Origin: Bacillus sp. UNC438CL73TsuS30
GTDB taxonomy: Bacteria > Bacillota > Bacilli > Bacillales > Cytobacillaceae
Direction: 5' to 3'
DNA: 64,000 bases
Assembly (NCBI RefSeq): GCF_000482325.1
Contig: NZ_AXVA01000014.1
Span: forward strand, 62,001-126,000
Below, piece by piece: positions 12,210 to 28,107 of the stretch (within the stretch, counting starts at the first letter, position 1; each line of letters starts with the position of its first letter). The notes beneath the pieces are model-generated. The model worked only from the letters and a program-made list of their open reading frames with translations. It searched no databases and was not told where the DNA came from. The position numbers and the translations under genes are program-made.

Positions 12210-13718
12210 TTAACTAAATACCGGCTCTTTTTCTTTTTCGATAAGACCAAGCGTCTGAGATGTTGAAGTATGAATTTCGTGAAGAAGCTCTGGGTTTTCC
12301 ATGAGTGACATGCCATAAGAAGGAATCATTTCTTTGATTTTCAGTTCCCACTCTTTTATATATTGTGGGAAGCATTTTTTGATTACCTCAAGCATAACGT
12401 AAACAGCAGTTGATGCACCCGGAGAAGCGCCTAGTAATGCTGCGATCGAGCCATCAGCGGAAGTAATCACTTCCGTACCAAATTGAAGCGTGCCTTTTCC
12501 GCCAGTTTCAGTATCTTTGATAACTTGCACACGTTGGCCCGCCACGACAAAATCCCAATCCTCACTTTTGGCGTTCGGGATAAACTCACGCAGCTCTTCC
12601 ATGCGCTCTTCTTTCGATAACATAACTTGCTTAATCAGGTATTTTGTCAATGACATCTCTTTTACTCCTGCCGCCAACATAGTTAAGACATTATTCGGTT
12701 TTACGGAAGTTACTAGATCAAATATTGAACCATTTTTTAAGAACTTTGGTGAGAAGCCTGCAAATGGTCCAAATAGCAACGATTTTTTATTGTTGATATA
12801 TCTTGTGTCAAGATGCGGAATAGACATTGGAGGAGCACCAACCTTAGCTTTGCCGTAAACTTTTGCATGATGCTGCGCTATAACTTCCGGATTATTGCAC
12901 ACCATAAATATTCCGCTTACCGGAAATCCTCCAATATGTTTTCCTTCAGGTATCCCGGTTTTTTGCAGTAAATGCAGGCTTCCTCCTCCGCTCCCGATAA
13001 AGACGAATTTTGCAGTATGGCGTTCGACAATACCGCTATCTAGTTTCTGCACTTTCAATTCCCACAAGCCGTCACTAGTACGTTTAATATCCTTAACATT
13101 ATGTTTGTGGTTTATAATGACACTTTTACTCTTTAGGTGGTCAAACAACATACGTGTTAAAGCACCAAAGTTGATATCAGTTCCAGAGTCCATTTTTGTT
13201 GCAGCGATAGGTTCGTTTGAGACGCGGTCTTGCATAATAAGCGGAATCCATTCCATCAGTTGTTCTGGTTCATCGGAATATTTCATCTCCTGGAATAGGG
13301 GATTGTTTGATAGCGCCTTAAAACGATTTCTTAAAAACGTTACATCTTGTTCCCCTTGTACTAAACTCATATGGGGCAGAGGCATGATAAAGTCCTGAGG
13401 ATTAAGGATTTGCCTGCTGTTTACAAGATAAGACCAAAACTGCATTGAAACCTGAAACTGTTCATAAATTTTTATTGCTTTATTAATATCTACAGATCCA
13501 TCCGATTTTTCAACTGTGTAGTTAAGTTCGCACAGTGCAGCATGCCCCGTTCCTGCATTATTCCATTCGTTAGAGCTTTCCTCTCCTACGTTTGCGAGCT
13601 TCTCAAACACTGTAATTTCCCATTCCGGTACTAATTCTTTCAAGAGTGTCCCCAAAGTTGCACTCATGATACCAGCGCCAATTAAAATCACATCAGTTTT
13701 AGCTTCTCTGTCAATCAT
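12210..13718 (-). CDS. mqo: Malate:quinone oxidoreductase
   Basis: Membrane-associated FAD enzyme that oxidises malate to oxaloacetate and passes electrons to quinone, an alternative to NAD malate dehydrogenase. The product is 502 residues, normal for Mqo. The FAD dinucleotide-binding motif is at the N-terminus ([12 protein letters not shown]), followed by [23 protein letters not shown], a strong family signature, and [13 protein letters not shown]. The frame is open to 13790, but the ATG at 13718 has GGAAGGGG eight bases upstream and gives the usual N-terminus. Confidence 0.94.
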
Positions 13719-13885
13719 TCTTACAACCCCTTCCTCTGAATTTTGCAGAAAAGATGTTGGTGTTACACCAAGCAAGGTATGCCTAGTCACAAATCATTTC
13801 TGTCTCTAACTATTTCATAGGTTATTACCATTTTTAAGATTAAAATATTTATAATTATATGATAATTTCAAATCATTGAAAAGTA

Positions 13886-14155
13886 GTAAAAACAAAAAAA
13901 CAAAGGAAATCAAAACTAAATAAAATAAAAACCAATCAAAATGTTGTATTTAGTTGGTTTTTTTATATTTAAAGTGATTATTAAGAATATTAAAATTATC
14001 CATTATCAGGGCCAGAAAAGCTTGCAAAGCCAGAATTAGAATTTTCCTATTTTCCTTTAATGAAAAAATACCCGATTCTACATCTTTTTTTACTGAAAAA
14101 CTAAAATACCAATAAAATACAACTTAAAAACAAACATAAACAAATTAAATAAAGG
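13886..14155. promoter_or_regulatory. A-rich CAA-repeat clusters upstream of the phnW operon
   Basis: Two clusters, 13886-13943 and 14090-14155, contain many short direct repeats of the type ACAAAC, AAAACCAAT and ACCAATAAAA. Very similar clusters occur before phnX (18691-18762). Regulators of the DeoR family commonly bind such A/T-rich direct repeats, and a DeoR-family gene lies in this operon. I infer operator sites; no binding data can be read from sequence. The 720-base mqo-permease gap also holds an inverted repeat (13927-13935 / 13954-13962) followed by T residues. Confidence 0.4.
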
Positions 14156-14220
14156 GAAATATCGGAAAAACTATTCACAATTGTCAGATAACATGTTATT
14201 CTTATTTGCGAGGTACAAAC

Positions 14221-14234
14221 CGAAAGCGCTTCCA
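14221..14234. promoter_or_regulatory. Possible CcpA (cre) site
   Basis: The 14-mer CGAAAGCGCTTCCA matches the cre consensus TGWAANCGNTNWCA at all but two positions. It lies about 50 bases before a good ribosome site (AAGGAGGAGG). If real, it would place the phosphonate operon under carbon catabolite control. Confidence 0.35.
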
Positions 14235-14270
14235 GTTGTAGCTTATATTTAGTTAAGGAGGAGGTTTTTT

Positions 14271-14431
14271 ATGGCCGCAAAGCAAAAGAACATCTAAAGA
14301 AGGTGAATGCAAAAGCATTAGTTGCAAGTTTAATAGGTAGTTCAATTGAATATTATGATTACCTGCTAATTTTAGAGGATCCATACCAACTGGAAATACT
14401 TCTAAAAAGAGCTCTTACTACTATTATATGA
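14271..14431 (+). pseudogene. N-terminal remnant of an MFS (MHS-family) transporter
   Basis: An AAGGAGGAGG ribosome site precedes ATG at 14271. After four codons a one-base shift is needed, then the frame reads EHLKKVNAKALVASLIGSS followed by IEYYDYLL. That is the characteristic start of metabolite:H+ symporters of the MFS (RALVAS-GTTIEWYDF pattern). After about 35 residues homology stops, and the frame ends at 14429-14431 just before the next gene's start. The body of the gene (roughly 400 codons) is missing, so this is a deletion remnant. It suggests the operon once began with a different importer. Confidence 0.65.
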
Positions 14432-14442
14432 GGAGGAGCAGT

Positions 14443-15858
14443 ATGAGTAATTCGTTACACAAAGGTCTAAAAATGAGACATATGACAATGATCGCATTGG
14501 GTGGAACCATCGGTGCAGGTTTGTTCGTGGGTAGTGGCACTGTCATTCGATCCGTCGGTCCGGCGGCAATTGTCTCCTACTTCTTGGCTGGTTTGTTGGT
14601 CGTTTTGATTATGCGCATGCTGGGAGAAATGGCAGTAGCCAATCCCACTCTTGGGTCGTTTGCTCAGTATGCCAGAACCGCACTCGGGGATTGGGCTGGT
14701 TTTTCGGTCGGTTGGTTATATTGGTTTTTCTGGGTCATTGTTCTGGGAATAGAAGCAACGGCCAGTGCAGCGGTCTTGCATTCCTGGCTGTTGCCGAATG
14801 TACCCCAGTGGCTTTTGAGCACAGTACCGCTCATTTTGTTAACCCTGACGAACTTAGTATCCGTTCGAGCTTACGGGGAATTCGAGTACTGGTTTGCGTT
14901 CATAAAAGTGGCAACGATTGTATTGTTCTTGGTTGTTGGAGGCTTATTCATCTTAGGAGTGTGGCCTGAAACACACTTTTCGTTTGAGAATCTTACCGCG
15001 CATGGTGGTTTTGCACCTCATGGTGTAGGGGTTATGTTTTCGGGGATTATCACCGCGGTTGCGGCATTTATAGGCGCCGAGATTGCTACAATTGCGGCAA
15101 CCGAATCGGACGAGCCACGAAAATCGGTTGCAAAAGCAACTAGTTCCGTCATTTGGAGAGTGCTAATTTTTTATGTTGGTTCTATTTTTGTAGTCGTTAC
15201 CATTGTGCCCTGGAATAACACCCAAATCTTAAAGAGTCCATATGTCAGCGTCATGAATGTATTGCATATTCCATCCGCTGGGGTAATCATCAATATCGTT
15301 GTTTTGGTAGCGGTCTTGTCGTGTCTGAATTCGGGCATTTATACAAGTTCACGAATGCTTTACGCAATGGCGAATCGCGGGGAAGCCCCGAGTCGATTAC
15401 TCGATGTTAACTCCCGGGGGGTTCCCGTAAAGGCAATACTATTTTGTGCAATAATAGCTTATATAACCGTGATTTTAGCATATGTTTCTCCTAACGCCTT
15501 CGCGTTTTTACTCAATGCGTCTGGGGCAGTGGGACTGTTTATCTATCTGTTCATTGCTGTATCTCAATTCAAGATGCGAAGAAAATTAGAGCAAGAAGCA
15601 CCTGACAAATTGATTGTGAAGATGTGGGGGTTCCCCTATTTAACCATCATTTGTATCCTAGCGATGATAGGCGTATTCATTTCAATGGCCTATGATGCGG
15701 ATACTCGTTCACAACTCATCTTGAGTTTAATCAGCTTTGTCATTGTACTTGCGATTTACTTTATACGTGCAAAACTTTCACTCCGTCGGGGTGGCAAATC
15801 CCATCCTACAAATCCAGATGTGGTTGAAGACACAGAGCAAGAAAATATATTTTTATAA
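14443..15858 (+). CDS. AAT-family amino acid permease, candidate AEP importer
   Basis: A 471-residue APC-superfamily transporter with about twelve membrane helices. The N-terminal motif LGGTIGAGLFVGSGTVI and the segment MRMLGEMAVANPTLGSF belong to the amino acid transporter (GabP/AnsP-like) branch. The start is the ATG at 14443 with GAGGAGGAGC upstream; the ATG at 14428 has no spacing for a ribosome site. It precedes phnW by 51 bases in the same direction. 2-aminoethylphosphonate is a GABA-like omega-amino acid analogue, so uptake of AEP is a reasonable inference, but the substrate is not proven by sequence. GC content looks slightly higher than in its neighbours, which may reflect recent acquisition. 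Confidence 0.85.
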   Translation: MSNSLHKGLKMRHMTMIALGGTIGAGLFVGSGTVIRSVGPAAIVSYFLAGLLVVLIMRMLGEMAVANPTLGSFAQYARTALGDWAGFSVGWLYWFFWVIVLGIEATASAAVLHSWLLPNVPQWLLSTVPLILLTLTNLVSVRAYGEFEYWFAFIKVATIVLFLVVGGLFILGVWPETHFSFENLTAHGGFAPHGVGVMFSGIITAVAAFIGAEIATIAATESDEPRKSVAKATSSVIWRVLIFYVGSIFVVVTIVPWNNTQILKSPYVSVMNVLHIPSAGVIINIVVLVAVLSCLNSGIYTSSRMLYAMANRGEAPSRLLDVNSRGVPVKAILFCAIIAYITVILAYVSPNAFAFLLNASGAVGLFIYLFIAVSQFKMRRKLEQEAPDKLIVKMWGFPYLTIICILAMIGVFISMAYDADTRSQLILSLISFVIVLAIYFIRAKLSLRRGGKSHPTNPDVVEDTEQENIFL

Positions 15859-15909
15859 ATATCCTACAAACTTACTTGAAAAAATTTAATTTAAAAGGAG
15901 ATAAAAAAA

Positions 15910-17043
15910 ATGACCCAAAACGATTTCACAAACAACCCTTACCTTTTACTTACACCTGGTCCACTAACAACAACGGATACTGTTAAGCTTGCGATGATGA
16001 AGGACTGGTGTACATGGGATGATGATTATAATAATATTGTCCAGGGAATCCGCAAAAGCCTTGTACAGTTGGCAACAAAATCGGTCGATCAGTATTCTTC
16101 AGTATTAATGCAGGGGAGCGGCACTTTCAGTGTTGAATCCGTAATTGGGACCGTTGTGCCGCGGGACGGCAAATTGTTGGTAATTGCAAACGGGGTATAC
16201 GGAAGCCGGATTGTTAAGATTGCCAAAACCCTTGGAATTAATACAGTGGTTATTGATAGCAGTGAAGTGGAAGCCATTGATTTGAATCGGTTAACGGTCC
16301 AATTAGAAAATGATACCGAAATTTCCCATGTTGCAATTGTTCATTGTGAAACGACAACAGGTATGCTCAATCCAATAGATAAAGTAAGTGAAATTGTTAA
16401 ACGTTATAACAGAGTGTTTATAGTAGATGCTATGTCAAGCTTTGGCGGGGTTGAATTGGATATCGCCGATTTAAGTATTGATTATATCATTAGCAGTGCT
16501 AATAAATGTATTGAAGGTGTCCCTGGATTTGGCTTTGCGATTGTAAAAAAGGACGAATTTGAAAAATGTAAAGATAATGCCAGATCGGTTTCACTAGACC
16601 TTTATGATCAATGGAAAACAATGGAGGAACAAAATGGCAAGTGGCGTTTTACTTCACCAACCCATGTTGTTCGTGCATTTGCTCAGGCGTTAAAAGAACT
16701 TGAAGAAGAGGGCGGTATTAAGGTTAGAGCTAGCAGATACAAGAACAACCAAAAGGTTCTTTCTGAGGGAATGAAAAAGCTTCAAATCCAGCCTATTTTA
16801 CCTGAAGAGTTGCAGTCACCAATTATTACATCATTTTATTATCCTAATTCTGAAAGTTTCGACTTCAAGGTGTTCTATCAAAAATTAAAAGAAAAAGGGT
16901 TTGTAATCTATCCTGGCAAGGTTTCTTCATTAGATACATTCCGAATCGGCAATATAGGAGATGTTCACCAAGAAGATATTGAGGACCTTCTTCAGGCAAT
17001 TGAACAAAGCAGCTATTGGCTTGATACCGTTTCTGAAAAGTAA
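15910..17043 (+). CDS. phnW: 2-aminoethylphosphonate--pyruvate transaminase
   Basis: PLP-dependent class V aminotransferase that transfers the amino group of AEP to pyruvate, giving phosphonoacetaldehyde and L-alanine. The 377-residue product has the family opening [24 protein letters not shown], the pocket [13 protein letters not shown], and the PLP lysine K199 in [15 protein letters not shown]. Length is normal. AAAAGGAG lies upstream of the ATG. Its partner PhnX is 2.1 kb downstream in a separate unit, and alanine dehydrogenase, which would recycle the alanine, ends that unit. Confidence 0.95.
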
Positions 17044-17193
17044 TCCACCCAAATCGATTCCACTTATTCACTATAATATTGGTAACCGGTAAAATTTGGT
17101 GGTAATATAAATGAATATTCAAATAAAATCGCTATCTTTTCCAATTATTATAGAAAGATTATAGTGGATTATCAAATCGTGGGGTGAATGGGT

Positions 17194-17979
17194 TTGTCAT
17201 TAGTAGGAGAGGAAAGGAAAAGGAAAATACTCGAGCTCCTTGACGTCAGCGGCAAGGTTAAGGTAAACGAACTTTCAAATATATTAAAGGTTTCTACGGA
17301 AACTGTTCGTAAATATTTAGATCAACTTCAAAAGGAAGAAAAATTGAAAAAAGTTTATGGAGGTGCGATCAACATTTCGTTTTTTAACGAAGAGCCCCCT
17401 ACCGTAGAACGAGAGGTGACTCATTCTGAAGCCAAACATCGAATCGGAGAGTTGGCAGTGAGCCTGATCAATGATAATGAGGTCATTGCGATTGATGAAG
17501 GCAGTACACCAATGCATCTTGTTAAAAATTTACGTAATAAGCAGAATATAACGATTTTTACTACCTCCATTTCAGCACTTTCTGTGTTAATTGAGCTACA
17601 CCAGAATAATATTTTTACCGGAAAAATCATTATGCTAGGCGGCGAAATTAATACAACCCACTATAGGGTTACAGGAAGCCTTACAATCGAAATGCTGGAA
17701 AATCTATATGTTGATAAATATTTTATCTCGGCTGACGGTTTAACAAGGGAAGCAGGGATTACGAGTTTTGACTCGTCCAAAGGTATGGTAACCAAGAAGT
17801 TAATTGAGCATTCCGGCCAATCCATTGTTTTAATTGATCAATCAAAAATCGGGAAGCGAACCCATTATAAAATGGCAGATTTAATTGATATTGATATCAT
17901 CGTTTCAGATCATGAGCATCCTCAAGACTGGGAATACCTGTTGAAAGAAAACAATATTCAATGGCTGGTTGCTAATTAA
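17194..17979 (+). CDS. DeoR-family transcriptional regulator (candidate phosphonate regulator)
   Basis: A 261-residue cytosolic repressor or activator of the DeoR/GlpR type. An N-terminal helix-turn-helix (RKRKILELLDVSGKVKVNELS, then VSTETVRKYLDQLQ, within residues 8-45) is followed by YGGAI and a sugar-isomerase-like sensor domain (DEGSTPMHL, LGGEIN, SADGLT, DQSKIG). I prefer TTG at 17194 because GTGGGGTG then has normal spacing; the ATG at 17188 is too close to it. The sensor domain usually binds a phosphorylated metabolite, so phosphonoacetaldehyde or AEP would be logical effectors here; that is inference from context. Confidence 0.85.
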   Translation: MSLVGEERKRKILELLDVSGKVKVNELSNILKVSTETVRKYLDQLQKEEKLKKVYGGAINISFFNEEPPTVEREVTHSEAKHRIGELAVSLINDNEVIAIDEGSTPMHLVKNLRNKQNITIFTTSISALSVLIELHQNNIFTGKIIMLGGEINTTHYRVTGSLTIEMLENLYVDKYFISADGLTREAGITSFDSSKGMVTKKLIEHSGQSIVLIDQSKIGKRTHYKMADLIDIDIIVSDHEHPQDWEYLLKENNIQWLVAN

Positions 17980-18048
17980 AGATAGGGAAAACTAATTGAT
18001 AGACTCTCCATACCTATGGAACAAGCTCCCGGGGAAGGGGGAAAACGA

Positions 18049-18567
18049 ATGGGCCATTTGGGAATCTTATATGAAGAGCATTTTTCGAAAAACATTGAAA
18101 TCTATTTGCGATTACTCATTAGCGCACTTCTGGGAATGTTTATAGGCTGGGACCGCAGTGCCAAAAATAAGCCGGCGGGCCTAAAAACCTTTACCTATGT
18201 TTCTGTTTCATGCACACTTATTACGCTGGTGTCCATTTATAGTGCTGAGATTTTTGGCGGCTCAAATGCAAATAACCGAATGGATCCAATGAGGCTCGCT
18301 GCACAAATTGTTTCTGGACTTGGTTTTTTAGGGGCCGGCTTAATTTTAAAAGATGGATTACAAGTAAAGGGATTGACTTCTGCAGCGATGATTTTTTTTG
18401 CAGGGGGAGTTGGAATAGGTATTGGAGCCGGTTTTTACGGCTTGGTTTTTACTTCCGTATTAATTACATTTCTACTGGCAAAAATTAGCCAGATAATTGA
18501 ACACCGCCATCCTATGACATTGGACAAAGAAGAAGCGAAGCGGGGATATCACAGTAGTTCTGGATAA
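18049..18567 (+). CDS. MgtC/SapB-family membrane protein
   Basis: A 172-residue protein with four or five membrane helices. It has the MgtC family signature regions LRLLISALLGMFIGWDR and KPAGLKTFTYVSV, the latter matching the conserved RxAGLRTH-type element with the histidine replaced by phenylalanine, and GLGFLGAGLILKDGLQVKGL. Family members are linked to Mg2+ or phosphate stress and interact with transporters or the ATP synthase. It closes the phnW unit. The start ATG at 18049 has GGGGAAGGGGG upstream and replaces an earlier ATG at 18016. A link to phosphate released from phosphonate is possible but unproven. Confidence 0.85.
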   Translation: MGHLGILYEEHFSKNIEIYLRLLISALLGMFIGWDRSAKNKPAGLKTFTYVSVSCTLITLVSIYSAEIFGGSNANNRMDPMRLAAQIVSGLGFLGAGLILKDGLQVKGLTSAAMIFFAGGVGIGIGAGFYGLVFTSVLITFLLAKISQIIEHRHPMTLDKEEAKRGYHSSSG

Positions 18568-18572
18568 TATAG

Positions 18573-18610
18573 AAGCCAGGTTCTAGTTTAACTAGGATCT
18601 GGCTTTTTAT
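18573..18610 (+). terminator. Terminator of the phnW-mgtC unit
   Basis: Stem AAGCCAGGTTCTAG / CTAGGATCTGGCTT (one or two G-U or mismatched pairs) followed by TTTTATT, directly after the mgtC-like gene. Confidence 0.85.
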
Positions 18611-18690
18611 TATCCGTGGTAAATTGGCCATTTGAGGGTAAATTTCCTAAAAACTACTATTTTATAAATACCCCAATATTATTTATATAA

Positions 18691-18777
18691 AACTACAAAC
18701 AAAAACCAATAAATTAATAAAATTTTTTAAAAAATAACAACTAAAACCAAGACAAACCAAATAATTTATGATACAAT
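18691..18777 (+). promoter_or_regulatory. Promoter/operator region of the phnX-BMC unit
   Basis: CAA-type direct repeats at 18691-18710 and 18736-18762 resemble the clusters upstream of the phnW unit. A possible sigma-A promoter is AAGACA (18749-18754), 17 bases, TACAAT (18772-18777); the -35 is weak (4 of 6), which suits a regulated promoter. The repeats overlap the -35 element, as expected for a repressor site. Confidence 0.5.
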
Positions 18778-18831
18778 CAAATCACATCAAGAGTTGAGTG
18801 AATATTTTAAATTTTATAAAGGAGGCAAAGG

Positions 18832-19009
18832 ATGAAAGTATTTCTTCTGGGTGAAGCAGGAAGAATTTGCCGTGAGGCGGTTTTGGATTTGGTTAAAGTA
18901 TTCTGATTTTACTGTCATCAGAATTGGTGAATTTAATGAGGAATTAGGGCTTGAACTGGTAAAGGAGCTAGATGATCGCCGAGTAAACTTTGGAAAAGTA
19001 AATGTTTAA
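18832..19009 (+). pseudogene. Remnant of a saccharopine dehydrogenase-like protein
   Basis: After a perfect GGAGG site, ATG at 18832 opens MKVFLLGEAGRICREAVLDL, a Rossmann NAD(P)-binding start resembling saccharopine dehydrogenase-type proteins. A one-base frameshift near 18896 then continues as KYSDFTVIRIGEF-NEELGLELVKEL, ending at a stop at 19007-19009. Only about 60 of roughly 400 residues remain. The remnant lies between the promoter and phnX, so the operon once had another first gene. An inverted repeat (19063-19072 / 19096-19105, AGGCAGGTAT) follows it. Confidence 0.65.
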
Positions 19010-19189
19010 CCATGAAGAAACAGTGAAAAAATTTAATGCATAATTTTTCTAAATTTGTATTGAGGCAGGTATTTTACATAAAAGATTTTTTTCGGGATAC
19101 CTGCCTTATAAAAAAACTACCAGCCAATAATTATGATAAATCCGAATAAAAACGGCAGTATTGGTTTGTTGAATAAGGAGGTTCGTCAT

Positions 19190-20002
19190 TTGAGTAATCA
19201 ATCTCCCCAAATTGAAGCAGTTATTTTTGATTGGGCAGGTACAACAGTGGATTATGGTTGCTTTGCACCATTAAATGTATTTTTAGAGATTTTTAGAAAA
19301 AGAGGAATAGAAGTTACAGACGAGGAAGCCCGTGCGCCAATGGGGCTTTTAAAGTGGGATCATATCCGCGCAATGTGTGATATGGACCGGATTGCCGGGT
19401 TGTGGAAGGAAAAATTCGGCAGAGTTCCGACCGATAAAGATGTCGATGATTTATATACCGACTTTGAACCATTGCTATTCGCCAGCCTCCGAAATTATTG
19501 TACACCGATTCCGGGTGCTCTTGATTTAGTCGCAAGACTTCGACAGAAGGGAATTAAAATTGGCTCTACAACCGGATATACATCAGAAATGATGGCTGTT
19601 GTTGCACCTGAGGCAAAGAAACAAGGTTATGCACCAGATTATATGTTTACACCGGATGATGCACCAGCGGGACGTCCTTATCCTTGGATGTGTTACTTAA
19701 ATGCTATGAATTTAGGAGTATTCCCAATGAAGCATATCATTAAGGTCGGGGACACGGTAAGCGATGTAAAAGAGGGCGTTAATGCAGGTGTTTGGAGTGT
19801 TGGAATAATCAAGGGCGGAAGCGAGCTTGGCTTAAAGGAAGAAGAAGTAAATTCCATGGATCCAGACCTTTTAGCGGAAAAAATGGAGGTTGTGGCCAAA
19901 CGCTTTAAAGATGCGGGAGCCCATTATGTGATTGATAGTATTGGAGAATTAGATAAACTAATTCCAAAAATTAATCTGCGTCTAGAAAATGGCGATTTTT
20001 AG
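19190..20002 (+). CDS. phnX: Phosphonoacetaldehyde hydrolase (phosphonatase)
   Basis: HAD-superfamily enzyme that cleaves the C-P bond of phosphonoacetaldehyde to acetaldehyde and phosphate using a Schiff-base lysine and Mg2+. The 270-residue product has the nucleophile region FDWAGTTVDYG (D14), the cap-domain lysine K55 in GLLKWDHIRA, STTGYT, and the acidic HAD motif KVGDTVSDVKEG. TTG at 19190 has AAGGAGGT at ideal spacing and yields the usual length; the ATG at 19133 lacks a ribosome site. It leads the BMC operon, with 63 bases to the first shell gene, so acetaldehyde production is tied to shell expression. Confidence 0.96.
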   Translation: MSNQSPQIEAVIFDWAGTTVDYGCFAPLNVFLEIFRKRGIEVTDEEARAPMGLLKWDHIRAMCDMDRIAGLWKEKFGRVPTDKDVDDLYTDFEPLLFASLRNYCTPIPGALDLVARLRQKGIKIGSTTGYTSEMMAVVAPEAKKQGYAPDYMFTPDDAPAGRPYPWMCYLNAMNLGVFPMKHIIKVGDTVSDVKEGVNAGVWSVGIIKGGSELGLKEEEVNSMDPDLLAEKMEVVAKRFKDAGAHYVIDSIGELDKLIPKINLRLENGDF

Positions 20003-20065
20003 AAAATAATTAAAAAATTTAGAGCTTTTGGTGAAATTTAAGTTTTTTTAGCCAAGAGGTAAGAG

Positions 20066-20560
20066 GTGAATGGATTGCAAAAACACGCCTATGCACTGGG
20101 AATGATCGAAACCATTGGCTTCCCGGCACTGATTGCTGCGGCGGATGCTGCATCAAAGTCGGCAGATGTAAAGGTTGCCTCCTACCAAGGGGCGGATTCG
20201 GGCATTGTTACCATTTATATTATCGGCGATGTTGCAAGTGTTAAAGCATCTGTCGAAGTAGGGGCAGATGCTGCAAAGAGGGTTGGCCAATTACGCCATT
20301 CTCATGTCATAGCTAGACCAGATAACCATATTATTCAAATGGTGTTTCCAGGTTTGTTAAAAAAAGAGCAATCAGAAAAAAAAGAATTAAAAATCGATAA
20401 ACCAAAAGATTGGACCAAAAATAGTCTTCAAGAGCTAAGAGAACTTGCTAATTCGTATAAAGGTTTTCCTTTATCGTCCGAAGAAATTTCTTCTGCTAAG
20501 AAAGAGGATTTATTGAAACAGATTAGCAAGTTCCTGGCTGAGAAAGGTGGCGATAAATAA
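20066..20560 (+). CDS. BMC-H shell protein with a C-terminal extension
   Basis: A 164-residue microcompartment shell protein. Residues about 9-95 form one BMC (pf00936-type) domain: ALGMIETIGFPALIAAADAA, a GDVASVKASVEVGADAAK helix and a HVIARPD strand. This would be a hexamer tile. Residues 100-164 are extra: a lysine-rich linker, then LQELRELANSYKGFPLS and SAKKEDLLKQISKFLAEK, which resembles the Rho N-terminal/SAP-like helical fold. EutK- and PduK-type shell proteins also carry unrelated C-terminal domains. The start is GTG 20066, or TTG 20075 (MQKHAYALG); both have AAGAGGT sites. The stop overlaps the next start (TAATG). Confidence 0.9.
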   Translation: MNGLQKHAYALGMIETIGFPALIAAADAASKSADVKVASYQGADSGIVTIYIIGDVASVKASVEVGADAAKRVGQLRHSHVIARPDNHIIQMVFPGLLKKEQSEKKELKIDKPKDWTKNSLQELRELANSYKGFPLSSEEISSAKKEDLLKQISKFLAEKGGDK

Positions 20561-22032
20561 TGAACCTGGATAAGGATCTTGAGTCAATTCAGGAAGCGAG
20601 ACTAAATCTCGAGCAGGCAAAACTTGCGCAAAAAAAGCTAAGGACGTATACACAGGAGCAAGTGGATCAAATTGTCCAAGCAATGGCACATGCCGCGATG
20701 AAAGAGGCTGGAAGGCTTGCATCGATGGCTGTAGAAGAAACAGGGTTTGGAAAAATAGAAGATAAGGTGACGAAAAACCTATTTGCGGCAAAAGATATTT
20801 ACGAGTCCATTAAGGATCGAAAAACGATTGGGATTATTTCGCGTGATGATGCTAAGCAGGTTTGGGAGGTTGCGGAACCGGCAGGAATTATAGCGGGGAT
20901 TGTGCCAACAACCAATCCTACTTCAACTGCTATTTTTAAAGCATTGATTGCAATCAAGTCAGGAAATGCGATTGTATTTAGTCCGCACCCATCTGCGGCA
21001 AATTGTACGAATGAGGCTGTGAAAATTTTAAAAGAAGCAGCGATCCGGGCAGGTGCTCCTGAAGGTGTGATTTCGTGCATTACAAAACCAACGCTTGCCT
21101 CTGCACAGGAATTAATGAATCATAAGTTGACTGATCTAATCTTAGCGACAGGCGGCCCTGGAATGGTCAAGGCAGCTTATAGCTCTGGAAAACCGGCATA
21201 CGGAGTTGGACCTGGGAATGTGCCTGTTTACATTCATTCCAGCGCCAATATTCGTAAAGCGGCCAGTCAAATTGTTCATAGTAAAACATTTGATTACGGA
21301 ACCATCTGCGCTTCGGAGCAGGCGCTGGTAGTTGATCAATCCATCAAGCGAAAAGTTAAAGCTGCTCTTGAAGAAGAAGGTGCATACTTCCTTGATGATT
21401 ATGAAAAGAAAAAGATTGAAGAGATTATTTTGAAACAAGGAAGCCTAAATCCAGAAATTGTAGGAAAATCGCCGCAAGCCTTAGCAAAAATAGCTGGAAT
21501 ACTTGTTTCAGATGATACAAGACTACTAGTTGCTGAGGAAGAAAACATTGGAAAATTTTATCCGTTTTCCCTTGAAAAGCTTTCTCCAATTCTTGCATTC
21601 TATACAGTTGAAAATTACACAGAGGGAAGTAAGGTGTGTAATGAGCTATTAGAAGCAGGCGGTTTAGGGCATACCCTTGGAATTCATTGTGAAGACAAAA
21701 CAATTATTGAAAGCTTTAGTCTAGCGCAACGAGTCTCTCGGGTTGTAGTTAATACTGGGACAACTTTTGGCGGAATTGGTGCCACCACCGGTATTTGGCC
21801 ATCGTTAACACTCGGCTGTGGTACTTACGGAAACAATATTTCATCTGACAATATTAGTCCGGAGCATTTATTGAATACAAAACGGGTTGCTTTTGGTGTC
21901 AGAGAAATGAAAAATGAGACACCAGCAGCACCAGCAGCTTCACAGCAAAAGGCTTCAATCGATGAAACGCTTATTTCCAAAGCTGAAGTAATGGAAATCG
22001 TAAAAAGTATTTTAAAAGAATTAAAGAATTAA
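20560..22032 (+). CDS. Acylating acetaldehyde dehydrogenase, BMC-associated (EutE/PduP-like)
   Basis: Converts acetaldehyde, NAD+ and CoA to acetyl-CoA and NADH, the core step of catabolic microcompartments. The 490-residue product has VPTTNPTSTAIFKALIAIK, the cofactor loop ATGGPGMV, and the catalytic cysteine C250 in YGTICASEQA, all of the EutE/PduP branch rather than ordinary aldehyde dehydrogenases. A flexible Ala/Pro linker after residue 450 leads to a C-terminal amphipathic helix (SKAEVMEIVKSILKELKN) that looks like an encapsulation peptide, in contrast to the N-terminal peptide of PduP. It overlaps the shell gene upstream by one base. Confidence 0.95.
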   Translation: MNLDKDLESIQEARLNLEQAKLAQKKLRTYTQEQVDQIVQAMAHAAMKEAGRLASMAVEETGFGKIEDKVTKNLFAAKDIYESIKDRKTIGIISRDDAKQVWEVAEPAGIIAGIVPTTNPTSTAIFKALIAIKSGNAIVFSPHPSAANCTNEAVKILKEAAIRAGAPEGVISCITKPTLASAQELMNHKLTDLILATGGPGMVKAAYSSGKPAYGVGPGNVPVYIHSSANIRKAASQIVHSKTFDYGTICASEQALVVDQSIKRKVKAALEEEGAYFLDDYEKKKIEEIILKQGSLNPEIVGKSPQALAKIAGILVSDDTRLLVAEEENIGKFYPFSLEKLSPILAFYTVENYTEGSKVCNELLEAGGLGHTLGIHCEDKTIIESFSLAQRVSRVVVNTGTTFGGIGATTGIWPSLTLGCGTYGNNISSDNISPEHLLNTKRVAFGVREMKNETPAAPAASQQKASIDETLISKAEVMEIVKSILKELKN

Positions 22033-22056
22033 ATTTTAAATGAGGAGGAATAAAAA

Positions 22057-22338
22057 ATGAGTGGAGAAGCTTTAGGAATGATTGAAACAAAAGGTTTGGT
22101 AGGTGCTGTAGAGGCAGCAGATGCAATGGCAAAGGCTGCAAATGTAAGGTTGATTGGGAAAGTCCATGCTGGCGGCGGGCTTGTAACGGTAATGGTACGC
22201 GGGGATGTAGGGGCAGTTAAGGCTTCTGTTGATGCTGGGGCTGCAGCAGCAGAAAGTGTTGGGGAATTGATATCTGTACATGTTATTCCACGCCCGCATT
22301 CAGATATTGAGTTAATTCTTCCAAAAATGGAAGGATAG
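22057..22338 (+). CDS. BMC-H shell protein (EutM/PduA-like)
   Basis: A 93-residue single-domain shell protein, length and sequence typical of EutM/Pdu[54 protein letters not shown]. It should form the main hexamer tile with a central pore. GAGGAGGAATAAAA precedes the ATG. It lies 24 bases after the aldehyde dehydrogenase and 3 bases before pduL. Confidence 0.97.
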
Positions 22339-22341
22339 GCC

Positions 22342-23124
22342 ATGGCGGTTATTACGGAATCCAAACTAAGAGCCATGCTGAAAAATGGGATTCCTAATCC
22401 TTTCATCCTGGAGGAAGGGGAGAAGCTTACCCCTTCCGCGAGGGATTTTCTTCGCGAAAGACGAATTGAAGTGAAACAGCCCCATGGGATGAAAAAAGCT
22501 AACAACGGCAATCAAATAGCTGAAAGTCCGCTTATTCCTGTCGGGGTTTCTAATCGGCATATACATCTATCGCCCCATGATGTGGAGGCCCTTTTTGGAA
22601 GCGGTTATCAGTTAACGCCGCTTCGTGAATTATCACAGCCGGGTCAATTTGCTGCGAAAGAGCTGGTTACAATACTTGGCCCAAAAGGGATTATTCAAAA
22701 TGTAAGAATCTTAGGACCAGCACGGGGGGAAACACAGGTGGAAATTGCCATCTCGGATGGGTTTCAAATTGGAATCCATCCCCCTGTGCGCTTATCTGGT
22801 TCTATTGAAGACACTCCCGGCCTTACTTTAGTTGGTCCAAAAGGGTGTGTGGTCCTAGAAAAAGGAGTTATCATCGCGAAACGCCACGTCCATCTTTCGC
22901 CTGATGATGCAAAACAACTCAATGTTGAGCAGGGTGATCGGCTATTACTGGAAACAACCGGTGAGCGGCGGATCATTTTTTCAGATGTAATTGTCCGGGT
23001 TAATCCCGGCTATCGAAAGGATTTCCATGTTGATCTAGATGAGGGAAATGCCGCTGGGTTAAAAACGGGGGATCTCGTTAAAGTCATTGGGAAAAATGAC
23101 CGATTTTATTTGAATGGGAGGTGA
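22342..23124 (+). CDS. pduL: Phosphate propanoyltransferase-type phosphotransacylase PduL
   Basis: Converts acetyl-CoA and phosphate to acetyl-phosphate and CoA inside the compartment, recycling CoA and enabling ATP formation by acetate kinase. The 260-residue product has the two PduL domains with zinc-binding histidines at H73/H75 (SNRHIHLS) and H182/H184 (AKRHVHLSPDDA). The first 45 residues are an extension (ESKLRAMLKNGIPNPF, then LTPSARDFLRERRIEVK), a motif seen at the ends of several BMC enzymes and probably used for packing. It overlaps nothing but ends in a ribosome site for the next gene. Confidence 0.95.
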   Translation: MAVITESKLRAMLKNGIPNPFILEEGEKLTPSARDFLRERRIEVKQPHGMKKANNGNQIAESPLIPVGVSNRHIHLSPHDVEALFGSGYQLTPLRELSQPGQFAAKELVTILGPKGIIQNVRILGPARGETQVEIAISDGFQIGIHPPVRLSGSIEDTPGLTLVGPKGCVVLEKGVIIAKRHVHLSPDDAKQLNVEQGDRLLLETTGERRIIFSDVIVRVNPGYRKDFHVDLDEGNAAGLKTGDLVKVIGKNDRFYLNGR

Positions 23125-23129
23125 GGAGG

Positions 23130-23948
23130 ATGGATATTCGATCAATGATTGAGTCGGTTGTAAAGGATGTTGTGCAATCGATGAAGGTTGAAAAAGAAAA
23201 TGAAAAGGTTGGAAAAGTGCTATTTGTTTTTTGTGACAGCTCGGCTCATGAGCGGTTTACTGATCAATTTATTAAGTTGAAAAATAACAAGATCGGATAC
23301 GACCTTTTATTTCTGGATGGTGAAACATCATCATGGCTAGGAATGCAAAGGGTTGAGTCAAGCGGGTCTGATCGAATTATTGCGGCTGATGAATATTCCC
23401 CAGCAGCAATTGAACTGCCAAAGGGTTATGACGGAATCATCATTCCAGAGATTGACTTGGACAATGCTGCTAGGGTGGTTACCGGTCTAAAGGGAACGAT
23501 TAAAGCTGAAATCATGTTTTCGGGAATTTTACTGGAAAAGTTCCTCATTGTCGGAGAGGATACTCCTGGAATTAAAAGAGCTGACCGCCTCTGCTTAAAA
23601 GTGACTTCTTTACCTGGCCCTTATCGCAAACAGTTTGAATTCTATGTTAAGGCAATGAAGGAACTAGGAATTGAGTTTTCCGCTCAAAAGGATTTAGCGG
23701 ATGTGATTATTGATAAATTCCGCGGGAAATTGGAGGAATCTCCAACTGCTTTGATTGAGGAAAGCGCCGGGGGTCTGGAGAATGGGTTAACCTTTAAGAA
23801 AAAACTTCTAACCCCCGAATGGATTCAAGCTCAGAAGGAATTTCCAAATCAAACCCTTTACCTTCCTAAGGGGGTCATCATCTCTCCTTTAGCTAAGGAT
23901 TTAATTAAGGAGAAAAAATTGGCCATAAAGTTTACCGGTAAAGGATGA
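23130..23948 (+). CDS. Uncharacterised BMC-associated protein
   Basis: A 272-residue protein whose family I cannot name. It starts with a short amphipathic helix (MDIRSMIESVVKDVVQSM), which looks like an encapsulation peptide, then a lysine/glutamate linker. The middle is an alpha/beta domain with KVLFVFCDSS, GYDGIIIPEIDLDNAARVV, and GIKRADRLCLKVTSLPGPYRK. The C-terminus (TLYLPKGVIISPLAKDLIKE) resembles the TP-A-D motif in the PduL N-terminus here. ATG at 23130 follows GGAGGTGAGGAGG; the frame opens nine bases earlier, inside that site. A flavoprotein-like or regulatory role is possible. Its place between pduL and the vertex gene makes it part of the metabolosome. Confidence 0.85.
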   Translation: MDIRSMIESVVKDVVQSMKVEKENEKVGKVLFVFCDSSAHERFTDQFIKLKNNKIGYDLLFLDGETSSWLGMQRVESSGSDRIIAADEYSPAAIELPKGYDGIIIPEIDLDNAARVVTGLKGTIKAEIMFSGILLEKFLIVGEDTPGIKRADRLCLKVTSLPGPYRKQFEFYVKAMKELGIEFSAQKDLADVIIDKFRGKLEESPTALIEESAGGLENGLTFKKKLLTPEWIQAQKEFPNQTLYLPKGVIISPLAKDLIKEKKLAIKFTGKG

Positions 23949-23955
23949 TGTAAAA

Positions 23956-24237
23956 ATGAGACTCGCACGGGTGGATGGAAGCATTTGGGCGATTCAAAAG
24001 GAAAAAGGAATGGAAAACATTAAACTTCTCATTGTTCAGCCCGTTAACGTGGAGAAACAGCCTGAAGGAAATGTGATCATCGCAATGGATCGGATTGGAG
24101 CGGGGATTGGAGAGTACGTCATCATCTCGCAAGGGACACCAGCTCAGAAATTGACGGGTGAAAAAAATTCACCTATCGATGCTGCGATTGTTGGTATTAT
24201 CGACTCGTTTGAAATAGGGTTTCAATCGACTAATTAA
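23956..24237 (+). CDS. BMC-P pentameric vertex protein (EutN/CcmL-like)
   Basis: A 93-residue protein of the EutN/CcmL family that closes the twelve vertices of the shell. Family features are [20 protein letters not shown], the strand LLIVQPVNV, and the conserved [20 protein letters not shown], ending [13 protein letters not shown]. It is the only vertex gene in the operon. It is seven bases after the preceding gene with AAAGGATGATG upstream of the ATG. Confidence 0.96.
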
Positions 24238-24262
24238 TGAGTTTAAAGGGAGGATGTTCATC

Positions 24263-25396
24263 TTGATTATTGGTGTACCGAAAGAAATTAAAAATAATGA
24301 AAACCGAGTGGCCTTAACACCAGCTGGAGTGATTTCATTTATAAATGCAGGTCATAAAGTTCTGGTTGAAAAGGAAGCTGGTTCTGGAAGTGGCTTCACA
24401 AATGAAGATTACGTAACTACTGGTGCTGAAATTATTGAACATGCAGAGGATGTATGGAATAGGTCCGATATGATTATGAAAGTGAAGGAGCCTCTTCCTC
24501 AAGAGTATCGTTATTTCCGTAAAGATTTAATTTTATTTACTTATTTACATTTGGCAGCTGAACCTTTCTTAGCTGAAGCGCTTAAAGAAAAAGGAGTCCT
24601 TGCCATTGCCTATGAAACGGTCTCAGTTAATCGTACCTTACCGCTGCTTACTCCAATGAGTGAGGTTGCTGGTCGAATGGCTGCACAGATTGGCGCACAA
24701 TTTTTGCAAAAATCTAATGGCGGGAAAGGTATTCTTCTTGCAGGTGTACCTGGTGTTAACCGTGGGAAAGTAACCATCATTGGTGGGGGGATAGTTGGAA
24801 CGAACGCCGCTAAAATGGCAATCGGCTTGGGAGCGGATGTAACCATTATCGATCTTAGTGCGGAACGTTTACGTCAATTAGACGATATTTTTGGTAATCA
24901 AATTAAAACGTTAATGTCCAATCCATTTAATATTGCGGAGGCAGTTCAGGAGGCTGATCTTTTAGTTGGTGCCGTCTTAATTCCTGGAGCAAAAGCTCCG
25001 AAGCTCGTCACTGAAGAAATGGTAAAAAGGATGAAGCCGGGTTCAGTCATTGTTGACGTGGCGATCGACCAAGGTGGAATCGTTGAGACGATTGATCATA
25101 TTACCACCCATGATCAACCAATATATGAAAAGCATGGTGTCGTTCATTATGCTGTTGCAAATATGCCTGGTGCCGTTCCACGAACTTCCACTATAGCCCT
25201 AACAAACGTTACCATACCATTTGCCTTGCAAATAGCTAATAAGGGAATATATAAAGCAATCTCAGAAAGCGAACCACTAAAGCTTGGGGTTAACGTGGCA
25301 AAAGGTAAGATCACATACGAGGCAGTTGCTAAGGACCTTGGTTTTGACTATGTAAAAGTCGAAAAGGCTTTAGAAAAGGAATTGGTTACAATATAG
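24263..25396 (+). CDS. ald: Alanine dehydrogenase
   Basis: NAD-dependent enzyme interconverting L-alanine and pyruvate + NH4+. The 377-residue product begins [19 protein letters not shown], with the active-site lysine in MKVKEPLP and histidine in YLHLAAE, and the NAD-binding [16 protein letters not shown] at 24263 has GGGAGG ten bases upstream; the ATG at 24254 is adjacent to that site and cannot be used. It ends the BMC operon. Since PhnW makes alanine from pyruvate, Ald would restore pyruvate and release the AEP nitrogen as ammonium. No encapsulation peptide is evident, so it is probably cytosolic. Confidence 0.95.
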
Positions 25397-25430
25397 GGTG
25401 TGTATTGCATTTTTATTTAGATAGAATAGT

Positions 25431-25474
25431 AAAACAACAAACAGAGCTTACTTGAGGCTGTTTGTTGTTTTAAG
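25431..25474 (+). terminator. Terminator of the phnX-BMC-ald unit
   Basis: Perfect 14-bp inverted repeat (25431-25444 / 25458-25471) with a 13-base loop and a short T run, 34 bases after ald. It bounds the operon downstream. Confidence 0.8.
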
Positions 25475-25605
25475 AATATTCCTTAGCGATTTAAAAAAGA
25501 GTTCACTTCGGATCGTCATCTTCACGAGCATAAGATTGTATAAATCTAAGAATTTTTATGATAGTTTACTTTCTATAATGAAAAGCTTTGAGAGGAAGAT
25601 AAACC

Positions 25606-25881
25606 ATGAGAATACAAGGTGAGATTGTTCGTAAACGTCATTACAAAAAGAATGGTAATCTAAATTATTACCTCTTATTTCTCAGAATTCATGATGGGGT
25701 AATGGTCAATGGGTTAAGGATTCATTATATACCGGCACTCATATCAAATAAAATGAATTTTAAGTTAGGCCAACAAGTTGATATTAAAGGTAAAATAAAA
25801 TTCCAACGGATTTTTACCCCTTCTGGAACTCTTAGTTTTTCTCCGGTCCCTGTCATGATTACTTCAGATTCTGGATTATAG
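25606..25881 (+). CDS. Hypothetical small protein, possible OB-fold
   Basis: A 91-residue, basic, soluble protein I do not recognise. The pattern of alternating hydrophobic strands (MRIQGEIVRKRHYKKNGNLN, LGQQVDIKGKIKF, FSPVPVMI) suggests a beta-barrel of OB type, but this is a guess. The ATG has GAGAGGAAG upstream. It stands alone between two terminators or AT-rich gaps, so nothing in the context points to a job. Confidence 0.6.
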   Translation: MRIQGEIVRKRHYKKNGNLNYYLLFLRIHDGVMVNGLRIHYIPALISNKMNFKLGQQVDIKGKIKFQRIFTPSGTLSFSPVPVMITSDSGL

Positions 25882-26122
25882 AATATAAAAATAGAATGAT
25901 GGAAGGGGAATTTCCTAGTTATCTCTCCCTCCGGAATGCTTAGAATTACTAAAAATATAATATTAAAACATTTATCAAAGCAATTATAATAAATTCGATT
26001 TTTTATAACAAATATGATATTGGATTGACATAATTTATTCCTGGACTTTGAAGAAACTGGTGGAAACAATCGTGATAAATCATGTATTCATTAAGAAAAA
26101 GAAGGGATGGAGTAAAATAATT

Positions 26123-26266
26123 ATGGAGAATCTTAACACTAAACAATTGCTAGAAGTTATTAATAAAGCAGTTGAATTAAACTTAAGCCAAGCGTTTATT
26201 GATTTACTGCGTATTGAGGTAAATAAACGATTACACATTTATTATATAGAGGATATTACACTATAA
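26123..26266 (+). CDS. sda: Sporulation histidine kinase inhibitor Sda-like
   Basis: A 47-residue peptide that aligns without gaps to B. subtilis Sda as I recall it: LLEVINKAVELNLSQAFIDL corresponds to the first helix and turn, and RIEVNKR to the second helix of the antiparallel hairpin. Sda binds the sporulation kinases KinA/KinB and blocks phosphorelay when DNA replication is stressed. The ATG at 26123 has GGGATGGAG upstream; the longer frame from 26048 adds an unlikely leader. No clear DnaA box cluster was seen before it. Confidence 0.72.
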   Translation: MENLNTKQLLEVINKAVELNLSQAFIDLLRIEVNKRLHIYYIEDITL

Positions 26267-26349
26267 AATTTTTAAATTTAAGTTGCAAACGGATCGCAGT
26301 ACTTTGGGTCTTGTGCTGCGGGTCTGAATGATGAAAGTTATTTTCAATG

Positions 26350-26396
26350 AGGGTGTTCCGAAAGTAAAACTTTTAGGAGCATCCCCTTTTTTATTT
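26350..26396 (+). terminator. Terminator after sda
   Basis: Imperfect stem GGGTGTTCC / GGAGCATCCC with an inner AAAGT/ACTTT pairing, followed by CTTTTTTATTT. Confidence 0.7.
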
Positions 26397-26418
26397 ATGC
26401 GTCTTTGAAACTTGTCTC

Positions 26419-26522
26419 TTGATTTCCACTCAAGGCATTTTGCTTTCCGTGCGCGTGCAGAGGAACCTCCTCGGCGCTCTAGCTCCTGCGGAGTGTCCCT
26501 TGCCCCGTACTCTCTCAGGTCA
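26419..26522. repeat. Degenerate Bacillus-type intergenic palindromic repeat
   Basis: GC-rich stretch with GATTTCCACTC, CCTCCTCGGCGCT and CTCCTGCGGAGTG. It is recognisably the reverse-orientation relative of the repeat at 30808-30998 (which reads CGGCGCTTTAGCGCC on its minus strand). No coding potential. It belongs to the GC-rich palindromic repeats scattered between Bacillaceae genes. Confidence 0.55.
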
Positions 26523-26569
26523 ACAGAGTAAAAAATATATTTATAAACTCTGAACAAAGAAATAAGAAA

Positions 26570-26627
26570 ATCATTCCATTTGGTATAATGAAGTTACCAC
26601 ACAAACAAAATACCAAAAAGGAATGAT
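26570..26627. repeat. Inverted repeat before the EamA transporter
   Basis: An imperfect 17-bp inverted repeat: 26570-26586 pairs with 26610-26627 (ATCATTCC...GGTAT / ATACC...GGAATGAT). The 23-base interior begins with the end of a TATAAT (26584-26589). It may be the relic of an insertion-sequence end or the operator/promoter of the next gene. No transposase remains. Confidence 0.45.
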
Positions 26628-26655
26628 CTTCTGTTAGAGCAGAAAGGAGCTTACT

Positions 26656-27549
26656 GTGAAAGGTCAATTAAACATAATTATTGCCATGCTCATATGGGGG
26701 AGTCTTGGCATTTTTGTAAAAAATATTAATCTATCCTCAAGTGAAATTGCACTATTGCGGGGAATAATTGGAAGTATATTTCTAATTTTTTTCTTAGTGA
26801 TTGCAAAACAGAAGCCCTCCATTCAAGCTGTTAAAAAGAATCTAGTGCTTTTGGTTTTTTCCGGAGCGGCCATCGGCTTTAATTGGATTCTTTTGTTTCA
26901 ATCCTATCGCTATACAACAGTCTCCAATGCAACCTTGAGCTATTATTTTGCACCAGTTTTTGTCATGGCTTTATCTCCTTTTGTATTAAAGGAAAGACTG
27001 ACTCCTGCGAAGGTGGGCTGCATCATCACGGCGATGATTGGCTTGTTCCTAGTAGTAAATATTGGGGGAGACGGTGGCGGGGGAAATTACCACCATGTAA
27101 CTGGAATTCTTTACGGTCTATCAGCAGCAGCCTTATATGCGAGTGTTGTATTAATTAATAAGTTTATTAAAAACCTGTCCGGATTTGAAACTACGTTCGT
27201 TCAGTTACTCGTCGCATCTGTCGTTCTATTTCCATATGTTTTCCTAAAAGATCATTTAGATTTTTCTGGAATTACTTCAAATTCGATTGTATTTATTTTA
27301 ATCATTGGGATTATCCATACGGGGATTGCTTATTTCCTTTACTTTACATCTATTCAAGAACTAAAGGGACAGAGGATTGCCGTCTTAAGCTATATTGATC
27401 CAATTTCAGCGGTAATATTTGCGGCAATTTTCTTAGGAGAAGGTATGGGCCTTATGCAAATGATTGGCGGAATCCTGATCCTTGGTTCAACTTTCCTAAG
27501 TGAAAGGATTGAAATTCGAATTCAAAAGATTCATAACAGTAAGGCATAA
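26656..27549 (+). CDS. EamA/DMT-family transporter
   Basis: A 297-residue inner-membrane protein with ten predicted helices formed by two EamA repeats. The first repeat begins IAMLIWGSLGIFVKNI; the second begins GILYGLSAAALYASVVLINK. Family members export amino acids or other small metabolites. The start is GTG with AAAGGAG. It may be co-transcribed with ridA (18 bases apart), which detoxifies reactive enamines from amino acid metabolism. The substrate is not deducible. Confidence 0.85.
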   Translation: MKGQLNIIIAMLIWGSLGIFVKNINLSSSEIALLRGIIGSIFLIFFLVIAKQKPSIQAVKKNLVLLVFSGAAIGFNWILLFQSYRYTTVSNATLSYYFAPVFVMALSPFVLKERLTPAKVGCIITAMIGLFLVVNIGGDGGGGNYHHVTGILYGLSAAALYASVVLINKFIKNLSGFETTFVQLLVASVVLFPYVFLKDHLDFSGITSNSIVFILIIGIIHTGIAYFLYFTSIQELKGQRIAVLSYIDPISAVIFAAIFLGEGMGLMQMIGGILILGSTFLSERIEIRIQKIHNSKA

Positions 27550-27567
27550 AGATTGGAGGTTTTTAAG

Positions 27568-27948
27568 ATGACAAGAAAAGCATATAATGCGGAGGGTGCG
27601 GCAGCTATCGGTCCTTATTCACATGCTGTTGATTCAGGTGAATTAATCTATCTTTCGGGTCAAACGCCAATTGATTCCGCAACAGGCGAGTTGGTCAAAG
27701 GTGGTATCGGTGAACAAACAAGACAATGCTTTTTGAATTTATTCAAAGTTCTCGAGGCTGCAGACTTAACGCCGGATGATGTGATTAAGGTGAATGTTTA
27801 TTTAACAGATATGAAAAATTTTAAGGCTATGAACGAAGTATACGAAACACAGTTCAGCCAACCGTTTCCGGCAAGAACGACAGTCGCCGTTGCTGCCCTG
27901 CCGCTTGCAGCAGAGATTGAAATTGAAATGATTGCAAAGAGATCATAA
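27568..27948 (+). CDS. ridA: RidA-family 2-iminobutanoate/2-iminopropanoate deaminase
   Basis: A 126-residue cytosolic trimeric enzyme hydrolysing reactive imines/enamines released by PLP enzymes. Family landmarks are AIGPYSHAV near the N-terminus, YLSGQTPID, and the C-terminal PARTTVAVAALPLAAEIEIE containing the catalytic arginine. ATG at 27568 follows TTGGAGG; a start at 27553 would precede this site. Length is standard. Confidence 0.93.
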   Translation: MTRKAYNAEGAAAIGPYSHAVDSGELIYLSGQTPIDSATGELVKGGIGEQTRQCFLNLFKVLEAADLTPDDVIKVNVYLTDMKNFKAMNEVYETQFSQPFPARTTVAVAALPLAAEIEIEMIAKRS

Positions 27949-28080: not shown

Positions 28081-28107
28081 TATTGAAGTGCTTAGTTCAT
28101 GAAAATA

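Follow-up and report, generated by a model that had tools for sequence, protein, structure and literature searches.

Which enzyme supplies the aldehyde to a bacterial microcompartment (BMC) whose genes lie beside those of phosphonate degradation? The question is raised by a locus in a 64,000-nucleotide stretch of Bacillus sp. UNC438CL73TsuS30, referred to here as the window, in which twelve genes in the same direction, all open frames of the + strand, were identified at 14428-25396 (Table 1). The hydrolytic pathway of 2-aminoethylphosphonate (AEP) is represented by PhnW and PhnX, both with profile hidden Markov model (HMM) scores over the cut-off, and PhnX with its catalytic residues intact. 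A metabolosome is represented by BMC-H and BMC-P shell proteins, an acylating acetaldehyde dehydrogenase (AldDH) and a PduL-type phosphotransacylase, again with HMM scores over the cut-offs. We consider it quite probable that the locus encodes an acetaldehyde metabolosome fed by carbon-phosphorus (C-P) hydrolysis of AEP via PhnX. A first-pass annotation of the window had proposed a C-P bond hydrolase as the aldehyde source. The proposal is supported by the linkage of phnX to shell genes in ten genomes, by an AldDH of the acetaldehyde type, and by the homology of the shell and core genes (the chassis) to acetaldehyde-handling ethanolamine (EUT) loci.

Recurrence and ancestry of the phnX-shell linkage

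Complete loci joining phnX to shell, AldDH and PduL genes were present 11 times in 10 genomes of three families (f1, f36 and f68; labels of families, genomes, contigs and loci are our own). Three gene orders were observed, each ending in a core of six genes (BMC-H with a C-terminal extension, AldDH, BMC-H, PduL, a protein of predicted flavoprotein fold, and BMC-P). The order was phnW-deoR-mgtC-like-(saccharopine-dehydrogenase-like)-phnX-core in f1 and f36, phnX-phnW-deoR-core plus one more BMC-H gene in three f68 genomes, and phnX-phnW-(saccharopine-dehydrogenase-like)-deoR-eutL-core in genome G714. The linkage extends beyond one genus, and an adjacency confined to this genome, a possibility raised by the first-pass annotation, is not what was found. 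Recurrence of the cluster in three bacterial families makes it likely that the phosphonate BMC is an organelle of a new type.

Among 37 loci retrieved from GTDB contigs with the window PhnX as the query, shell genes were present within the stretch covered in two, one from 'Paenibacillus' sp. BSR1-1 and one from Bacillus sp. MUM 116. MUM 116 supplies a third candidate, a second copy that runs off the contig edge; this genome has two phnX copies of the shell-linked type (L016, L018). On contig C125 of G031, two BMC-H genes accompany a BMC-P frame interrupted by a single in-frame TGA; this contig perhaps holds the missing half of that second copy. Within the genus, PhnX was present in 11 of 61 genomes and BMC-P in 37 of 61, with both within 5 kb in five (5/61, or 5/11 of those with PhnX). 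Of the 397 genomes in the order sample, 40 had PhnX and 6 the flavoprotein-fold gene; two of the 39 PhnX genomes beside the window's had any BMC domain, which adjoined phnX in one (G379, of another family). The flavoprotein-fold gene was present in 28 of 398 genomes of the class sample, where 16 of its 33 places were inspected; the 13 class-sample loci inspected comprised four complete phosphonate BMCs, one remnant and eight EUT loci. Flavoprotein-fold and PhnX homologues (119 and 120, respectively, among the matches listed) fell on contigs of equal size at least 14 times, three of these being loci already inspected, against a mean of 0.3 with shifted sizes; for contigs of at least 5 kb, the count was at least 12 against 0.06 expected. 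A shell-free PhnX-PhnW cluster with alanine dehydrogenase (AlaDH) was observed in Paenibacillus marchantiophytorum (L019).

In a PhnX tree of 63 rows, built with 20 of the 39 order genomes, all 20 shell-linked rows fell within one 27-row clade (support 82/90); long branches were flagged elsewhere in the tree. The clade also has 7 of the 10 rows of undetermined context and none of the 33 rows from shell-free loci. The tree leads us to expect shell genes beside the PhnX of Siminovitchia fortis, Virgibacillus halotolerans, Fictibacillus sp. Mic-4, Bacillus sp. PK3_68, B. wudalianchiensis and Peribacillus simplex. Of the 23 rows without shell genes in an earlier tree analysis, which also gave the AldDH grouping, 10 are absent here, all of them non-Bacillota; L050 was not in the earlier tree, and L098 entered only later. 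In the AldDH tree, phosphonate and EUT rows separate along one branch (76/96), and the window genome's own EUT enzyme and its enzyme of the sugar-phosphate (SPU) type lie far away. In related EUT loci, EutL precedes and EutABC follows this core, whose gene order is unchanged. Because of this core order and the AldDH split, the phosphonate type looks like an EUT-type chassis in which the lyase has been replaced by a phosphonatase, a direction of change that we infer. Ancestry is seen more clearly in the PhnX tree than in the AldDH tree. The only full chassis found in G714, EutL included, begins with the phn genes, and EutABC lies on another contig (the G714 loci are L124 and L132), where the 20 kb inspected were without AldDH, PduL, the flavoprotein-fold gene and BMC-P. 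G714 may represent an intermediate that still has EutL.

The shell, core and phosphonate genes are under purifying selection, with ratios of nonsynonymous to synonymous divergence (dN/dS) of 0.009 to 0.221 where dS was computable; many dS values were close to saturation, and this range is that of the unsaturated comparisons. Relative to MUM 116 and BSR1-1, the flavoprotein-fold gene and BMC-P (23121-24237) showed a dS of about 1.5 to 2.5, compared with up to 0.35 for their neighbours, which would fit replacement of this segment by recombination.

Gene content of the locus and its genomic setting

All of the genes that the first-pass annotation had named (phnW, phnX, two BMC-H, BMC-P, AldDH, pduL and alanine dehydrogenase) were present as + strand frames with HMM scores over their cut-offs. 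The stretch that it marked begins with a permease gene, and DeoR and MgtC-like genes lie between phnW and phnX; its unassigned BMC protein was also present and is now a weak TIGR02536 match with a predicted flavin mononucleotide (FMN)-flavoprotein fold. From the extended BMC-H gene through AlaDH, gaps between neighbours are tiny or the genes overlap.

Table 1. Features of the predicted phosphonate microcompartment locus, in window positions
Feature	Position	Strand	Evidence
Amino-acid permease, γ-aminobutyrate (GABA)-permease-like	14428..15858	+	PF00324 413 bits; TIGR01773 563 bits, below cut-off 678
PhnW, 2-aminoethylphosphonate:pyruvate transaminase	15910..17043	+	TIGR02326 583.7 bits, cut-off 400.8
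DeoR-family regulator	17188..17979	+	PF00455, PF08220; homologues in relatives adjoin PhnW/PhnX
MgtC/SapB-family membrane protein	18016..18567	+	PF02308 106 bits; retained at the locus in several relatives
Saccharopine-dehydrogenase-family gene remnant, truncated, frame broken	18832..19040	+	Sequence inspection
PhnX, phosphonoacetaldehyde hydrolase, signature enzyme	19190..20002 (longer frame from ATG 19133)	+	TIGR01422 372.6 bits, cut-off 220; PDB 2iof 373 bits
BMC-H with C-terminal extension	20066..20560	+	PF00936 82 bits, above cut-off
AldDH, EutE type	20560..22032	+	TIGR02518 646.2 bits, cut-off 620.1; PDB 5j78 677 bits
BMC-H, EutM/PduA-like	22057..22338	+	PF00936 97 bits, above cut-off
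PduL-type phosphotransacylase	22342..23124	+	PF06130 252 bits; NF011652 263.3 bits, cut-off 209
TIGR02536-related protein, predicted FMN-flavoprotein (HFCD) fold after N-terminal helix	23121..23948	+	TIGR02536 29 bits, cut-off 152.5; fold prediction
BMC-P vertex protein	23956..24237	+	PF03319 104 bits, above cut-off
AlaDH	24254..25396	+	TIGR00518 609.8 bits, cut-off 391.85

Translation of PhnX probably starts at TTG 19190, which is preceded by AAGGAGG, rather than at ATG 19133, and this start site is common to six relatives (L009, L016, L017, L018, L103, L104). An N-terminal encapsulation peptide on PhnX was considered and rejected, as the apparent extension sits 5' of the ribosome-binding site. 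The catalytic residues Asp12, Lys53, His56 and Asp186, in the numbering of the solved enzyme, were identical in all 20 shell-linked PhnX sequences. A clade-specific C-terminal stretch was present in these proteins, with 6 of 18 diagnostic positions within residues 250-265; it could be a docking element or a mark of mere ancestry. Plasmids yielded 54 PhnX records, every one below 60% identity.

The AldDH carries a C-terminal amphipathic tail in all 11 loci, and the flavoprotein-fold protein has an N-terminal helix; by their resemblance, both are putative encapsulation peptides. The solved structure nearest to the AldDH is an acetylating acetaldehyde dehydrogenase (5j78). Activity of the AldDH on phosphonoacetaldehyde was rejected (TIGR03250, 45 bits vs a cut-off of 636). 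Searched against PDB sequences, the flavoprotein-fold protein gave chance-level rows only (E of 0.2 or worse).

The source assembly is a 5.6 Mb draft in which the window lies on contig C9. Four BMC loci were identified in this genome. Besides that of the window, C4 carries a second phosphonate copy and an SPU locus marked by DERA and RpiB, and C11 an EUT locus that combines EutABC and EutL with shell genes, an AldDH and a PduL of its own. The genome's sole EutB is that on C11; the first-pass annotation had seen no signature lyase in the window, and the EutBC pair that marks an EUT BMC is absent from the phosphonate locus.

The second phosphonate copy (L009, 8144-18792) has diverged from that of the window. 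Its genes for PhnW, DeoR, an MgtC-like protein, a saccharopine-dehydrogenase-like protein, PhnX and the same core of six are flanked by those of a predicted AEP transporter upstream and of PbfA downstream, PbfA standing where the window copy has AlaDH. The AEP-binding protein of the predicted ABC transporter scored 466 vs 393 bits with TIGR03261, and PbfA 730 vs 525 bits with NF049939. PbfA converts (R)-2-amino-1-hydroxyethylphosphonate (R-HAEP) to phosphonoacetaldehyde (PMC8154272). The transporter and PbfA suggest a separate substrate range for this copy, predicted to include R-HAEP.

The saccharopine-dehydrogenase-like gene, decayed in the window between the MgtC-like gene and phnX, is an open frame in L009 (10977-12173), L017, L098, L103 and L104. 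Genes of this family recur in Bacilli phnWX clusters with and without shells (also L020, L108, L113). No role for such a gene was found in the available texts on phosphonate pathways. Its identity as the PbfF racemase was rejected, as the gene matches PF03435/PF16653 and PbfF is one of the D-2-hydroxyacid dehydrogenases, pfam02826 (PMC12366243).

A homologue of the permease is present at the equivalent position in MUM 116 (L016), and the permease is a possible AEP importer of the window copy. The genome has three AlaDH copies, that of the window included. No Rfam match reached its gathering score within 10000-30000, and promoter-like sites were no commoner than chance (33 observed vs 33.9 in shuffles). 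The start of an open reading frame at 9654-10742 (- strand) is, we presume, similar to the UvrC N-terminal (GIY-YIG) region; the frame is far shorter than full UvrC.

Proposed pathway and its alternatives

AEP, as the predicted substrate, would enter via the permease in the window copy or, in the second, via the ABC transporter. PhnW would transfer the amino group of AEP to pyruvate, yielding phosphonoacetaldehyde and alanine, and AlaDH, likely a cytosolic partner of PhnW, would return the alanine to pyruvate with the release of ammonium. PhnX, likely in or at the shell, would split phosphonoacetaldehyde into acetaldehyde and phosphate, and the flux would continue through the EutE-type AldDH, which would convert acetaldehyde to acetyl-CoA and NADH. 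The shell would contain the acetaldehyde freed by C-P cleavage. PduL would exchange coenzyme A for phosphate to form acetyl-phosphate, for which the phosphate from PhnX could be used. Each acetaldehyde made by PhnX comes with one phosphate, and each acetyl-CoA converted by PduL takes one up; a shell with both enzymes would therefore be phosphate-balanced and export acetyl-phosphate. Such a balance requires PhnX in the lumen, a location to which we incline by a narrow preference. The fuller scheme, in which a phosphonatase took over an ethanolamine-type chassis so that the C-P bond is broken inside the shell, acetaldehyde passes to AldDH and phosphate to PduL, and the phosphorus of AEP leaves as acetyl-phosphate, seems to us evenly poised between true and false.

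Several observations weigh against a PhnX-fed metabolosome or parts of it. The linkage is rare (2 of the 40 PhnX genomes in the order sample), and 6 of the 11 PhnX genomes of the genus have no BMC-P within 5 kb or are interrupted by a contig break. The remnant in G577 (L118) retains PhnX, PhnW, DeoR, a PduL fragment, the flavoprotein-fold gene and BMC-P, and has lost BMC-H and AldDH. The Brevibacillus-family loci lack AlaDH, and support for the AldDH grouping is weak. Profile scans identified no alcohol dehydrogenase among the twelve genes, a departure from the usual core of metabolosomes; PF00465 occurs in 76% of heterotroph BMC loci (Axen 2014), and so is common, not universal. Because this enzyme is lacking among the twelve genes, the flavoprotein-fold protein is proposed to help re-oxidise NADH, as it may. 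On inspection of the termini, no classical encapsulation peptide was identified on PhnX, PhnW or AlaDH. With the peptide-like termini on the AldDH and the flavoprotein-fold protein, PhnX may be cytosolic and the shell, enclosing these two proteins and PduL only, a sink for acetaldehyde made outside. The Brevibacillus-family loci agree with this arrangement, as PhnX lies there upstream of the shell genes with PhnW and DeoR. In the Bacillus-type loci, by contrast, phnX adjoins the first shell gene, apart from phnW, the C-terminal stretch of shell-linked PhnX is a possible docking element as well as possible ancestry, and an outside source of acetaldehyde would defeat containment. We take a cytosolic PhnX seriously, while doubting it.

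EutB is present elsewhere in all 11 genomes tested, another point against exclusive feeding by PhnX, and each organism may therefore also make acetaldehyde from ethanolamine. The shell could then be an ethanolamine or shared acetaldehyde chassis, for which the phosphonate genes are not the main client but a supplementary feed or hitchhikers. The G714 EutABC is without nearby core genes, and the phn-headed chassis there may therefore serve both substrates. We regard this explanation as improbable: the window's genome and G793 have a separate EUT locus with its own shell, AldDH and PduL, and the cluster itself has PhnW, PhnX and DeoR, to which the second copy adds a transporter and PbfA. A broader diet, compatible with a PhnX-fed metabolosome, would make AEP one of several aminophosphonates served by the shell, with R-HAEP entering via PbfA and possibly N-substituted AEP via the saccharopine-dehydrogenase-like enzyme. 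PbfA in the second copy and the recurrence of the latter gene in several loci favour it; the window copy is without an adjoining PbfA and its saccharopine-dehydrogenase-like gene has decayed, and we find this extension rather unlikely. The assembly is listed with 8.76% contamination, which also counts against the locus. Contamination, chance adjacency or an assembly artefact is refuted by the loci of relatives, given that the linkage recurs in ten genomes from three families and that MUM 116 has two such phnX copies, and its probability is negligible.

Comparison with known systems

No phosphonate-linked BMC was found in the open-access literature searched; an unnamed entry among the 68 BMC types of the Sutter 2021 supplement may be a counterpart. 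A term search for 'phosphon' in the main text of Axen 2014 and Sutter 2021 gave no occurrence. The aldehyde of known metabolosomes comes from ammonia-lyases, dehydratases, glycyl-radical enzymes and aldolases (in part PMC8217296). If the PhnX-fed metabolosome is real, a C-P bond hydrolase would be a new signature enzyme for metabolosomes, and protein organelles would be tied to the phosphorus cycle. It would also show cleanly how one enzyme can replace another while the shell is conserved, G714 being a possible intermediate. Loci of cultivable Brevibacillus and Bacillus-type species would gain a testable function, and the system would be a tool for engineering shells that make acetyl-phosphate or release phosphate.

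The closest known system is the EUT2-type ethanolamine BMC, in its Bacilli form, which shares the acetaldehyde chemistry and, in the same order in relatives, the extended BMC-H, a type-I AldDH with a C-terminal tail, BMC-H, PduL, a TIGR02536-related flavoprotein and BMC-P. Unlike it, the phosphonate cluster is without EutABC, has EutL in G714 only, and carries PhnX, PhnW and DeoR instead. The SPU (sugar-phosphate/deoxyribose) BMC is likewise an acetaldehyde metabolosome, with one in the same genome, but has DERA and RpiB as signature enzymes and an AldDH that falls far outside the others in the tree. With the hydrolytic AEP pathway, the locus shares PhnW, PhnX and the accessory PbfA (PMC8154272); the available texts on that pathway mention no shell, AldDH or PduL genes, whereas here they form one cluster with it. 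A precedent for enzyme exchange on a conserved shell is GRM4 as a signature-enzyme swap of the PDU type (PMC8217296). As described there, both enzymes share 1,2-propanediol as the substrate, whereas only the product, acetaldehyde, would be common to the two enzymes here.

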